From Muribaculaceae bacterium (GTDB lineage Bacteria; Bacteroidota; Bacteroidia; Bacteroidales; Muribaculaceae): a DNA stretch of 12,023 bases. The notes below the pieces were generated by a model. That model was not told the DNA's origin. It did no database searches and worked only from the letters and a program-made list of their open reading frames with translations. How positions within the stretch are numbered: the first letter of the stretch is position 1; each line of letters starts with the position of its first letter. The translations under genes were made by a program, and so were the position numbers. The stretch lies in NCBI GenBank assembly GCA_029059965.1, contig JAIDUY010000280.1, positions 1-12,023 on the forward strand. The letters are read 5' to 3'. Below are positions 611-3,721 of the stretch, piece after piece.

Positions 611-2158
611 ATGCTCGTCAAGTCATATGCCGCCGCCGTCCAAGGCATCAATGCCATAGTAGTCACCGTCGAGACAGCCGTCTCGAAAGGCATACAGTAC
701 TGTATCGTCGGCCTGCCCGACACCGCCGTCAAAGAGAGTCACGAGCGTGTCCGCTCGGCTCTGACACAGAGTGGCTACAGCACCGGACGCGCGAGCGTGG
801 TAATCAATCTGTCGCCCGCCGATGTCAAGAAGGAAGGCGCGGCCTACGACCTGCCTATCGCCGTGTCCATCATGGTCGGCTCGGAACAAATCAAGGCGCC
901 CGAGCTGGAGCGCTATATGATAATGGGCGAGCTGTCGCTCGACGGCAGCGTGCTGCCCGTGCGCGGCATCCTGCCCATGGCCATCGAGGCAAGAGCCCAT
1001 GGCTTCAAGGGCATCATCGTGCCCAAGGCCAATGCCTGCGAGGCCGCTGTGGTCAACAATCTCGAGGTCTACGGCGTAGAGAATCTGCGCCAGGTCGCCG
1101 ACCTGCTCAGCGGCAGGGGCGGAGTCGAGCCAACGGTCGTCGACACCCGCGCGGAGTTTGCTCGCGCGGCGTCGGTCTACGACATGGATTTCCGCGAGGT
1201 GCGCGGTCAGGAAAACGTAAAGCGCGCTTTCGAGGTGGCCTGCGCCGGCGGCCACAATATACTCCTTGTCGGCCCTCCAGGCTCCGGCAAGAGCATGATG
1301 GCCAAGCGACTGCCCACAATCATGCCTCCGCTGAGCCTCGGCGAAGCCCTTGAAACCACTAAAATACACTCCGTGGCCGGCAAGCTTCCGCGAGGCTCGC
1401 GCCTGATGACCGTGCGTCCCTTCCGGTCGCCGCACCATACCGTCAGCCCTGTGGCCATGGTCGGCGGCGGTACGGTGCCCATGCCCGGCGAAATATCGCT
1501 GGCTCACAATGGCATACTGTTTCTGGACGAATTTCCGGAGTTCCCGCGGCAGGTACTCGAAGTGCTCCGCCAGCCCCTCGAAGACCGCCATATCAGCGTG
1601 TCGCGCGCCCGCTATCAGATAGACTATCCCGCAGGCTTTATGCTCGTGGCGAGCATGAACCCCTGTCCCTGCGGATATTACGGCCACCCTACCCGACCCT
1701 GCACATGTCCTCCGGGGGCCGTCAACAAGTACATGAACCGCATATCGGGTCCCTTGCTGGACCGCATCGACCTTCAGGTAGAGATTATGCCCGTCGAATT
1801 CGAGCAACTCGCAGGACGCCCCGAAGGCGAGACCAGCGAGGCCATCCGCGCCCGTGTCATAGCGGCTCGCGAGCTCCAGGCACGCCGCTACGCCGACGCA
1901 CCCGGCGTGCACTGCAACGCACAGATTACGCCGCGGCTGATGGAAAAATACTGCAGCCTCGATGCCGAAAGCACGGCCATACTGCGCAAGGCCATGACCA
2001 AGTACGACATGAGCGCCCGCGCCTACGACCGCATCCTCAAGGTAGCGCGCACAATCGCCGACCTCGACGGCAGCGACACCATCCGCCCGCTCCACATCCA
2101 CGAAGCCGTCGGCTACCGCACCCTCGACCGCGGCACCCGCGGCCTGGTGACCTTCTAA
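611..2158 (+). CDS. comM: YifB/ComM family Mg chelatase-like AAA+ ATPase
   Basis: 515 residues, the usual length for YifB/ComM. The N-terminal ChlI-like domain (about 1-175) contains CIVGLPDTAVKES and INLSPADVKKEGAAYDLPIA, family hallmarks. The AAA+ module follows: Walker A GPPGSGKS (221-228), Walker B GILFLDEFPEF (301-311), sensor-1 region ASMNPCPCG (347-355), and RISGPLLDRIDL (377-388) with candidate arginine-finger residues. The Mg_chelatase C-terminal domain runs from about 408 to 515. Four cysteines in PCPCGYYGHPTRPCTC (351-366) resemble a zinc-binding insert common in this family. In Vibrio and Haemophilus, ComM is a hexameric helicase that promotes branch migration during natural transformation; the protein is also widespread in bacteria not known to transform, so its role here is inferred as DNA recombination or branch processing in the cytoplasm. 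It probably shares a transcript with the preceding gene. No terminator is seen before the downstream repeats. Confidence 0.95.
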   Translation: MLVKSYAAAVQGINAIVVTVETAVSKGIQYCIVGLPDTAVKESHERVRSALTQSGYSTGRASVVINLSPADVKKEGAAYDLPIAVSIMVGSEQIKAPELERYMIMGELSLDGSVLPVRGILPMAIEARAHGFKGIIVPKANACEAAVVNNLEVYGVENLRQVADLLSGRGGVEPTVVDTRAEFARAASVYDMDFREVRGQENVKRAFEVACAGGHNILLVGPPGSGKSMMAKRLPTIMPPLSLGEALETTKIHSVAGKLPRGSRLMTVRPFRSPHHTVSPVAMVGGGTVPMPGEISLAHNGILFLDEFPEFPRQVLEVLRQPLEDRHISVSRARYQIDYPAGFMLVASMNPCPCGYYGHPTRPCTCPPGAVNKYMNRISGPLLDRIDLQVEIMPVEFEQLAGRPEGETSEAIRARVIAARELQARRYADAPGVHCNAQITPRLMEKYCSLDAESTAILRKAMTKYDMSARAYDRILKVARTIADLDGSDTIRPLHIHEAVGYRTLDRGTRGLVTF

Positions 2159-2173
2159 TTGAACCTCGCTAAA

Positions 2174-2300
2174 GCTCAGCGCTCCCACAAAACCTTTTGT
2201 TCCTGCCTTGAGCCTCAGCGCGCTCCCACAAAACCTTTTGTTCCAGCCTTGAGCCTCGGCGCTCCCACAAAACCTTTTGTTCCAGCTTTGAGCTTCAGCG
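2174..2300. repeat. Three tandem 33-bp REP-like hairpin repeats
   Basis: Three 33-bp copies lie at 2181-2213, 2222-2254 and 2261-2293, separated by 8 and 6 nt (periods 41 and 39). Copies 1 and 2 differ at one base, and copies 2 and 3 at one base. Each copy is an imperfect palindrome: outer GCTC and GAGC, inner ACAAAA and TTTTGT around a CC centre, with an asymmetric bulge (2 nt on one side, 9 on the other). The joining sequences (CTCAGCGC, CTCGGC, TTCAGCG) are also related. Asymmetric short hairpins next to a Y1 transposase-like gene are the classic arrangement of REP/BIME elements with their RAYT protein. They sit 22 nt after the comM stop and end 22 nt before the transposase-like start. They could also act as 3'-end RNA hairpins for comM. 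No T-run follows them, so they are not an ordinary terminator. Confidence 0.9.
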
Positions 2301-2315
2301 AAAAAAAACAACCCC

Positions 2316-3203
2316 ATGCCCAACTACCGAGCACCCTGGCACGACTACACCTCAAGGTGTATCTACATGATTACAATCAACAAAAGCCCTCGGTGCCCCT
2401 CTTTCGGCAAGTTGGAAGGCAGCCCGCTGATACCCGCCGGACAGGCCGGCAGCAGCTTCATCCAGGCTTCGCACACAGGCTCAGCCATCAAACAAGCTCT
2501 CATGGGCTTTCCCCGCGCCACGCCCGAGGCCCGTGTGCTCCAATACGCAATCATGCCCGACCATATCCACTTCCTGCTCTTCATCCAAGAGCCAACAGAG
2601 GAAATTTTAGGCCGTATTATTGCGCGATTTAAAGTCGAAGTGGACCGACTGTCAGGAGTTGAACAAGTATTTGACAAAGGCTTCAATGACCAGATTCTAA
2701 AGCCTTCACGCTCGCTGGATGTGCTTTATCGTTATATACGTGATAATCCGAGGAGGCTTGCGGTGAGACGGATGAATCCGGATTTTTTCAGACGTGTAAA
2801 TCTTGAAATCGGCGGAAAGCTGTGCCCGGGCTATGGAAATCCGCAGCTGCTCGACAACCCTTTCAAGGAACAGGTGGTGGTGCACCGCGCCGACAGTGCA
2901 TCGGACCGCGAACACAAGCGACAGCTATGGCTCTACACCGCCGCCAACGGCGGTGTGCTTGTCTCGCCCTTCATTTCTCCTGCTGAAAAAGCCATCAGGG
3001 CCGAGGCCGAAGAGCTCGGAGGCAGGTTAATTCTAATCAGCAACGAGACTATGGGCGAGCGCTTCAAGCCCTCGGGGCACGACTTCGGGCTGTGCGAGGC
3101 GGGGCGTATGCTCATTATCTCATCCGAGGACTTTGGAAGCACATTATCACGCTCTGTATGCCTGAGCATGAATGCCTTTGCGGCGCGGGTGGCTACGGCC
3201 TAA
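2316..3203 (+). CDS. RAYT-like Y1 (HUH) transposase-family protein with extra C-terminal domain
   Basis: 295 residues. The N-terminal part (about 1-160) matches the Y1_Tnp/REP-associated tyrosine transposase pattern: YRAPWHDYTSRCIYMITIN (4-22), QYAIMPDHIHFLLFI (76-90) with the HUH metal-binding motif His83-Ile-His85, FDKGFNDQIL (119-128), and YRYIRDNPRRLA (138-149), where Tyr140 is the likely nucleophile in the YIxxNP motif. Such proteins nick single-stranded DNA at REP hairpins and form a covalent phosphotyrosine bond. Residues about 170-295 form a second, alpha/beta-looking domain (GGVLVSPFISPAEKAI, RLILISNETMGERFKPSG, GRMLIISSEDFG) whose function is not recognised; it is absent from simple RAYTs. 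The start at 2316 places the conserved YRAPWHDY right at the N terminus. No flanking target-site duplication or second transposase gene is visible. The stop overlaps the stop of the convergent phosphatase gene by 4 nt. DNA between about 2590 and 2810 is clearly AT-richer than its surroundings. Confidence 0.85.
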   Translation: MPNYRAPWHDYTSRCIYMITINKSPRCPSFGKLEGSPLIPAGQAGSSFIQASHTGSAIKQALMGFPRATPEARVLQYAIMPDHIHFLLFIQEPTEEILGRIIARFKVEVDRLSGVEQVFDKGFNDQILKPSRSLDVLYRYIRDNPRRLAVRRMNPDFFRRVNLEIGGKLCPGYGNPQLLDNPFKEQVVVHRADSASDREHKRQLWLYTAANGGVLVSPFISPAEKAIRAEAEELGGRLILISNETMGERFKPSGHDFGLCEAGRMLIISSEDFGSTLSRSVCLSMNAFAARVATA

Positions 3204-3721
3204 CGCGGGGTCAGGGTGGTGTAGAGATTGGAGCAGGTGTCGGCGAGGAGGTCGAGGACGAGTTCGAAGCCTTCGGAGCCTTCGTAGTAGGGGTCGGGGA
3301 CGTAGTCGTAGCACGTCGCCATCGTGCAGAAATCCATCATCGGTATTATCTTCGATTCGGCTTCGGGCGTGGGTGCCATGCGGCGCAGATGGCGCTCGTT
3401 GGAGGCATCCATGGGGATGATGAGGTCAAAGTCGTCGAAGTCGGCCTCGCGTACCTGACGGGCATGATGAGTCAGCTCAAGGCCCCGCATACGGGCATGG
3501 ACGCGCATACGGCGGTCGGGGAGGTCGCCGGTGTGATAGTCGCCGGTGCCGGCGGAATCTATTGTCCAGCGGTCCTGCGCGCCGTTGCGGTCGACGATGT
3601 CGCGGAGAACGCCCTCGGCAGCCGGACTGCGGCATATGTTGCCGAGGCATACGAAAAGAACACTAATATGAGGAGCCGCCGCCAGTTCGGCGAGACGCTT
3701 GTCGGAACGGTGCTTTTGCAT
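3200..3721 (-). CDS. Low-molecular-weight protein tyrosine phosphatase
   Basis: 173 residues, slightly longer than the usual ~155 because of a 19-residue N-terminal lead. The LMW-PTP signature VCLGNICRSPAAEGV (24-38) holds the catalytic Cys25 and Arg31 of the C-x5-R-S loop. SAGTGDYHTG (56-65) and IPMDASNERHL (102-112) are further family blocks, and VPDPYYEG (141-148) carries the general acid Asp143. The enzyme hydrolyses phosphotyrosine through a cysteinyl-phosphate intermediate in the cytoplasm. Family members often act on exopolysaccharide tyrosine kinases or as arginine phosphatases, but no kinase lies nearby and the substrate is unknown. The ATG at 3721 is the only suitable start and sits 17 nt after a TATCTTTG promoter element, so the gene has its own promoter and a very short leader. 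It converges on the RAYT-like gene; their stop codons share CTAA at 3200-3203. Confidence 0.93.
   Translation of the reverse strand: MQKHRSDKRLAELAAAPHISVLFVCLGNICRSPAAEGVLRDIVDRNGAQDRWTIDSAGTGDYHTGDLPDRRMRVHARMRGLELTHHARQVREADFDDFDLIIPMDASNERHLRRMAPTPEAESKIIPMMDFCTMATCYDYVPDPYYEGSEGFELVLDLLADTCSNLYTTLTPR

Follow-up and report, generated by a model that had tools for sequence, protein, structure and literature searches.

RAYT/REPIN pairs are best described in Proteobacteria, where they go with GTAG repeats. The survey of TnpA-Y1 proteins by Quentin et al. (2018; PMC6006769) distinguishes 12 subclasses, and the REP-bearing ones have GT[AG]G feet except for subclass 2.6 and class 3. In this survey, subclass 2.6 comprises Bacteroidetes proteins with a median length of 179 aa, the motifs NH[LIV]H and YIH[QN]NP and atypical, non-GTAG flanking structures that have copies elsewhere in the genome. 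Subclasses 2.1 and 2.3 have large C-terminal domains (with HTH-like tails in 2.1) and are described there as lacking REPs. TIRYTs have non-GTAG inverted repeats that lie on both sides of the gene, often with GGGGWSAS, and some of these repeats form families while others do not (Di Nocera et al., 2013; PMC3733652). Because 20 of the 26 TIRYTs fall into subclass 2.1 (PMC6006769), the combination of a large C-terminal domain and flanking repeats has a precedent, and non-GTAG inverted repeats beside tyrosine transposases were already known from TIRYTs and subclass 2.6.

Here we analysed a 12,023-nt stretch of DNA (the window) from a Muribaculaceae bacterium, in which a gene for a RAYT-like Y1 HUH protein follows an array of repeats. 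This locus is probably a chromosomal REPtron of the RAYT/TnpAREP type, representing a family found mainly in Bacteroidales that has a C-terminal domain and a GTAG-less REP type of its own. The locus resembles class 2 of the TnpAREP/RAYT proteins in its HUH and Y---NP motifs, low gene copy number, inverted REP-like palindromes beside the gene and unit-specific multi-copy repeats in some genomes. It differs from them in lacking a GT[AG]G foot, in an additional C-terminal domain of about 148 aa and in a cognate repeat for which no dispersal was found in the window's genome. The REP-like palindromes of the window lie on the upstream side only. Subclasses 2.1 and 2.3 have a similar length and a large C-terminal extension as well, whereas the window family has REP-like repeats and no HTH-like tail as in 2.1. 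As in TIRYT/TIRtron systems, a tyrosine transposase is combined with non-GTAG inverted repeats, but the window locus has neither GGGGWSAS nor a downstream copy, and its repeats end in covarying palindromes; some relatives of the window's gene do have repeats on both sides. REPINs likewise consist of two inverted REPs as a unit, and the inverted pairs found here measure about 73 bp (genome G140) to 171 bp (G199) end to end; sequence and foot are different, and the three tandem units of the window share palindromes. Judged by motifs, length and domains and not by a joint tree, the motif set of the family matches none of the 12 listed subclasses, and no description of the family was found in the open-access literature on TnpAREP, REPIN/RAYT or REPs in Muribaculaceae/Bacteroidales.

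The locus and its RAYT-like protein

The window is contig 202 of a 2.19-Mb assembly of 545 contigs that is 83% complete and 6% contaminated. The gene directly upstream of the RAYT-like gene is comM, which has a role in natural transformation; a gene for a low-molecular-weight phosphatase lies downstream on the other strand. A gap of 157 nt separates the comM stop from the start of the 295-aa ORF and holds three tandem 33-nt units, the last of which ends 22 nt before the ATG at 2316. The original prediction had described these three near-identical repeats and their distance from the gene correctly; the comM neighbourhood and the C-terminal domain were not foreseen by it. No Rfam family matched within 2100-3250.

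Table 1. Positions of the features of the locus in the window.
Feature	Position	Strand	Basis
comM (YifB/Mg-chelatase-like ATPase)	611..2158	+	Pfam Mg_chelatase (9.1e-94), ChlI, Mg_chelatase_C
REPIN-like array in the gap between comM and the RAYT-like gene	2166..2301	.	inverted outer palindromes flanking three tandem hairpin units
Distal palindrome TCGCTAAAGCTCA	2166..2178	-	inverted copy of the proximal palindrome, one mismatch
Repeat unit 1 (GCTC...ACAAAA CC TTTTGT...GAGC)	2181..2213	+	repeat search, sequence reading
Repeat unit 2	2222..2254	+	repeat search, sequence reading
Repeat unit 3	2261..2293	+	repeat search, sequence reading
Proximal palindrome TGAGCTTCAGCGA, 14 nt before the start codon	2289..2301	+	imperfect, only two inner pairs form
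Gene for RAYT-like Y1 HUH protein, 295 aa, intact	2316..3203	+	ORF, motifs, profile matches
DHIH (HUH) motif, residues 82-85	2559..2570	+	alignment of 68 sequences
YIRDNP motif (residues 140-145), presumed catalytic Tyr 140	2733..2750	+	alignment of 68 sequences
C-terminal domain, residues 148-295	2757..3200	+	second conserved region, Pfam/PDB profile searches

The HUH and YIxxNP motifs named in the original prediction are present, and their key residues H83, H85, Y140 and N144 are invariant in an alignment of 68 sequences, with D82 present in at least 90% of the rows; homologues with a stop or frame break, for instance those of loci L007 and L036, were excluded from this alignment. The motif set of the family consists of DH[ILV]H, a YIR-NP consensus and F--GFND, in the place where others, by eye, have W[QE]. 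On its own the window protein stays below the curated cut-offs of NCBIfam REP_Tyr_transpos (NF047646; residues 70-147, 30 bits, cut-off 80) and Pfam Y1_Tnp (PF01797; 13.8 bits, cut-off 23), whereas the profile of the whole family has TnpArep (4er8, E 2.8e-4) as its top solved structure, followed by transposases, and 65 of the 68 aligned members match Y1_Tnp at E values up to 1 (best 3.6e-8). The Y1/RAYT type given in the original prediction is supported, more clearly by the family than by the window protein alone.

The top-scoring named relatives come from Muribaculaceae and other Bacteroidales, and loci titled Kiritimatiellia/Kiritimatiellae and Verrucomicrobia also align with the family. A match to the protein was found in 81 of the 198 sampled genomes of the bacterial family, in 18 of 30 genera. 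The window's genome (G000) contains one full-length copy and one weak match; other genomes of the bacterial family have up to ten matches each, fragments among them. The weak match in G000 (contig 228, 3458-3589, L282) is a Y1-type protein with the motif YIRNQKEHH that fits the published subclass 1.2. PADLOC returned nothing for the window protein and three weak single-member matches within the family.

Residues 148-295 form the second conserved region, with the motifs GN--LL, GGVLVSPFIS--EK, KP---F--C--GRLLI and MN--A. No Pfam family matched more than one of 51 members in this region (best E 0.007), and the sole HTH match among the 51 was HTH_PafC in one member (E 0.18). In profile searches against the PDB the C-terminal part gave weak matches to DprA (5mll, E 0.022; 3uqz, E 0.25) with PdxJ entries interleaved (E 0.054 to 0.31), and the whole family profile also matched DprA weakly (E about 0.04). 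A DprA-like domain, which had also been suggested by eye, was not confirmed: hhalign against 23 Bacteroidales DprA sequences gave a probability of 2-3% in other registers, and hmmsearch with the same 23 yielded nothing above shuffled sequences. The profile of the C-terminal region was matched in 17 of 295 sampled genomes of the order, 15 of them outside the bacterial family, and at all 11 loci read from other families the ORF of the listed length also has an HUH-like and a Y---NP motif in a regular-expression check. Going by these motifs, the two-domain architecture occurs beyond the bacterial family too. As a guess, the C-terminal domain could serve hairpin recognition or recruitment to single-stranded DNA.

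Architecture and covariation of the array

The array can be described as a 46-nt direct repeat in three copies, starting at 2175, 2216 and 2255 with spacings of 41 and 39, the second and third being 89 and 91% identical to the first. The original prediction had read it as three asymmetric hairpins. Folded as single-stranded DNA, single stretches are no better than shuffles, with z-scores of -1.93 for 2166-2220 (10 of 200 shuffles as good), +0.51 for 2209-2261 and +0.44 for 2250-2304; only the whole array (2166-2301) outperforms every one of the 200 shuffles (z -3.0). The prediction had described ACAAAA/TTTTGT inner arms; it is not this stem but the outer palindrome of the GAGCTTCAGC type that recurs upstream of the gene in relatives. 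This palindrome is present in the window once inverted, at the comM side, and once direct, at the gene side. Since two further degenerate palindromes stand between TCGCTAAAGCTCA and TGAGCTTCAGCGA, the three units share palindromes. The sequence of the array fits inverted REP halves, as in a REPIN, better than three asymmetric hairpins that are independent of one another. As predicted, the hairpins are unlike the GTAG REPs: reading the sequence, no GT[AG]G foot is found in the array.

For comparison 85 distinct loci were used, from which short flanks or low identity left 75 for the flank-repeat test, 74 for the stem test and 72 for the core test. Within the 260 nt preceding the gene, 24 of the 72 loci have the core GCTTYAGC, counted in both orientations and with TTAA loops accepted, compared with 6 of 337 control windows taken from elsewhere in the same loci. 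In all 12 loci where both orientations are unambiguous, as counted from the listing, the inverted core is the distal one. The other 48 loci do not have this core, and some of them have hairpins with CTTG/CAAG loops. Perfect upstream stems of at least six pairs were found in 26 of 74 loci, in 137 of 1,480 shuffles and in 44 of 401 distant windows. The longest perfect stem of the window has five pairs (ACAAA/TTTGT), and at five pairs the respective counts are 49 of 74, 521 of 1,480 and 145 of 401.

The stems covary. In a set of 21 distinct palindromes from 23 extracted, 33 cells are changed on both sides, compared with 14.9 +/- 3.1 in shuffles that leave relatedness in (0 of 500 as high), and the covariation score is 0.386, compared with at most 0.188 when the palindromes are slid. 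Only the five outer pairs are informative in this analysis, because the sequences were picked for the core, which fixes the two inner pairs.

When the comM-gene gaps of the 20 comM-linked loci were placed side by side, roughly half shared one layout by eye, most clearly L004, L010, L014, L015, L036 and L041. This layout has the inverted REP half on the comM side and the direct half on the gene side, and most of the halves combine a T-rich stretch of the TTTTTGT type, some ten nt and then a short palindrome whose loop is TTCA, TTTA, TTAA or similar. Other gaps deviate, with one long palindrome (L019, L044), pyrimidine-rich sequence (L006, L029) or other repeats (L085).

Repeat copy number in the window's genome and in relatives

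Searches of the window's genome for the 19-nt core, allowing 2 mismatches, and for the 26-nt unit, allowing 3, gave three sites, all of them in the array. According to the original prediction, a repeat restricted to this locus would refute it, and for the window's genome this is what was found. The genome thus has no repeat population within the 83%-complete, 545-contig assembly. In part of the relatives a pairing of repeat and gene recurs, with covarying palindromes, as the prediction would have it. The flank-repeat test likewise detected no repeat copy above shuffles downstream of the window's gene. A generic palindrome, GAGCTTYAGCKM, was tried as a family-wide probe and rejected, as it was not above the reversed control in most genomes (in the window's genome 8 matches, 21 in the control), because stems differ between species; at the 30 loci viewed, one per genome, its matches were chance-like by eye except for L135. 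It was replaced by unit-specific patterns.

With these patterns, gene-flanking units were found to be multi-copy in the relatives G140, G198 and G199. Genome G140, from the same genus as the window's genome, contains 42 copies of the window-type unit (control 0). The palindrome beside the RAYT-like gene of G140 itself reaches 138 copies there (control 7), and the second-highest count among 49 genomes of the genus is 31 (control 10). Directly after the G140 gene the palindrome forms an inverted pair. G140 thus has two palindromic repeat families, with 42 and 138 copies, for one family gene found. The palindrome lies within 100 nt of a window-type unit in 5 of the 17 G140 loci read, and the two repeat families may be halves of one composite REPIN. 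The G140 palindrome, GCTTCGAGCTCTTGCTCG, is also matched at 21 sites of the window's genome (up to 3 mismatches), with 16 on the same strand, compared with 4 in the control.

The unit flanking the genes of L077, L071 and L073 is present in 30 (G198), 51 (G199) and 7 (G200) copies, respectively, with 0 in each control, and some of the copies form inverted pairs. As for G140, these counts include the copies beside the genes; in G200, three of the seven copies share contig 32 with the gene, and each of the remaining four has 2-3 mismatches. L071, L073 and L077 were picked for repeats seen beforehand in their flanks, and G140 came to attention through its high count; these multi-copy examples are therefore not a random sample. 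The G199 unit occurs in 0-7 copies in 60 other genomes of its genus, 8 of which have 1-7 copies, with two control matches in all. Some homologue is present in 50 of these 60 congeners, and the closest homologues to that of G199 (53-60% identical) are found in genomes with 0, 1, 1 and 7 copies. Since G199 has several homologues, the gene matching the repeat was assigned from its position.

Two or more copies of the window-type unit (up to 3 mismatches) were detected in 5 of the 198 genomes of the bacterial family. A single unit was found in G003, which has the protein, and in three genomes without a listed protein match. On whether copy number follows the homologue, as the prediction had asked, all five genomes with at least two window-type units carry the protein, as do 81 of the 198 in all. 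For the most part, a multi-copy repeat is restricted to the genome in which it flanks the gene.

Samples of four comM-linked relatives contain few copies. Those of G170 (400 kb), G050 (220 kb) and G117 (160 kb) contain only the gene's own copy of the palindrome (up to 3 mismatches), and a 400-kb sample of G057, with its comM-linked gene outside the sample, has two copies of the cognate palindrome compared with one in the control. Three copies of the window-type unit are present in the comM-linked G102; on contigs 7 and 22 of this genome, away from the gene, REP-like units stand in tandem at 34-35 bp, a spacing similar to that of the window.

Little or nothing in these four samples, the confinement of the repeat to the locus in the window's genome and the position of the array wholly inside the comM-gene gap would also be expected if the array were no more than a cis element acting locally on the RAYT-like gene or comM (a leader, attenuator or mRNA-stability structure), the protein did not act on it and the repeats of the relatives were separate amplifications. 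We regard this as rather doubtful, since loci in which comM was not found next to the gene have upstream palindromes too (for example L007, L038, L071, L073, L076, L077), and the high copy number in G199 and G140 goes with the genome whose gene that unit flanks. The scan of 2050-3300 for promoters and terminators also speaks against it: no terminator-like site was found on the + strand, and the single promoter-like site and the single terminator-like site detected lie on the other strand (means of 0.4 and 1.6 in shuffles).

Linkage to comM and alternative explanations

comM is located upstream on the same strand in 20 of the 85 distinct loci including the window's (19 of 84 relatives' loci), which is a lower bound because some loci are cut at contig ends. 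A tree was calculated from 54 of the 68 alignment rows, excluding 12 rows labelled P and two long sequences. The window pairs with L005 (support 97/92), and in a clade of 10 (92/82) nine members are located at comM; the tenth is the gene of G140, the genome with the large repeat population. On the whole tree the comM label requires 9 changes, compared with 14.7 in shuffles. This distribution may reflect either an ancestor located at comM, with later relocations among its descendants, or repeated insertion.

At L015 the RAYT-like gene is followed by 54 nt that repeat the comM 3' end exactly, and the duplication looks as if a unit had entered the comM tail, leaving a second copy. Ordinary Y1 transposition is not known to duplicate its target and would not generate this copy. 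Repeats shared by the upstream and downstream flanks are direct in 18 of 75 loci and inverted in 13 of 75, with 0 and 0 in one shuffle each; of the 18 direct cases, two duplicate the comM tail and a third extends across sequence with Ns.

These flanking repeats, the L015 copy and the 9 changes of the comM label are what a mobile single-gene unit (IS200-like/TIRtron-like) would leave if it inserted at comM and elsewhere with the repeats as its ends. This explanation is nevertheless distinctly unlikely, as the window's gene lacks a downstream copy, only a single full-length copy is present in each of G000, G003, G140 and G170, and the other full-length matches in G199 are 35-37% identical to the query copy. 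Unlike IS200/IS605, the protein has YIRDNP and not Y---Q, no tnpB was detected among the scanned neighbours of the gene (Pfam scan), and in one pattern-based scan of viral contigs none of the 177 stretches that fit one of two peptide patterns encodes a relative.

Very improbable, in our estimation, is a RAYT family taken into DNA uptake, in which the endonuclease would have been kept beside comM, a diverged DprA-like domain would handle single-stranded DNA, hairpins in incoming or replicating single strands would be cut and the array would be a docking or regulatory site; if true, this would link natural transformation with an HUH protein of the REP-associated kind. That the locus is an ordinary member of TnpA-Y1 subclass 2.6 we consider least probable of all, for although phylum, atypical GTAG-less flanking structures and copies elsewhere in genomes agree with that subclass (PMC6006769), the window protein has 295 aa compared with the median of 179, DHIH with D82 in at least 90% of the rows, YIRDNP in a family with the consensus YIR-NP, and the C-terminal domain of about 148 aa.

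For a REPtron of the RAYT/TnpAREP type, the reading we favour, a mechanism can be proposed by analogy to TnpAREP biochemistry (Corneloup et al., 2021; PMC8266576). As inferred from TnpAREP, the protein would bind the palindrome as a hairpin in single-stranded DNA, cut next to the hairpin through Tyr140 and rejoin the strands. In the window's genome the protein could act in this way on its own leader only, with cis-regulation and an occasional local duplication as possible consequences, and we propose that such duplication of the leader would account for the three tandem units. In some lineages the same chemistry would have spread REPINs over the chromosome.

In this family, GTAG-less REPs that covary and are sometimes multi-copy go together with a large C-terminal domain. 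In the survey of TnpA-Y1 proteins, the subclasses with such large domains had no REPs beside their genes, though TIRYTs, which mostly belong to one of these subclasses, have other inverted repeats (PMC6006769). Within a single genus the repeat numbers range from one locus to more than 100, and how a stationary RAYT locus gives rise to a spreading repeat population becomes a question that is testable by comparison.
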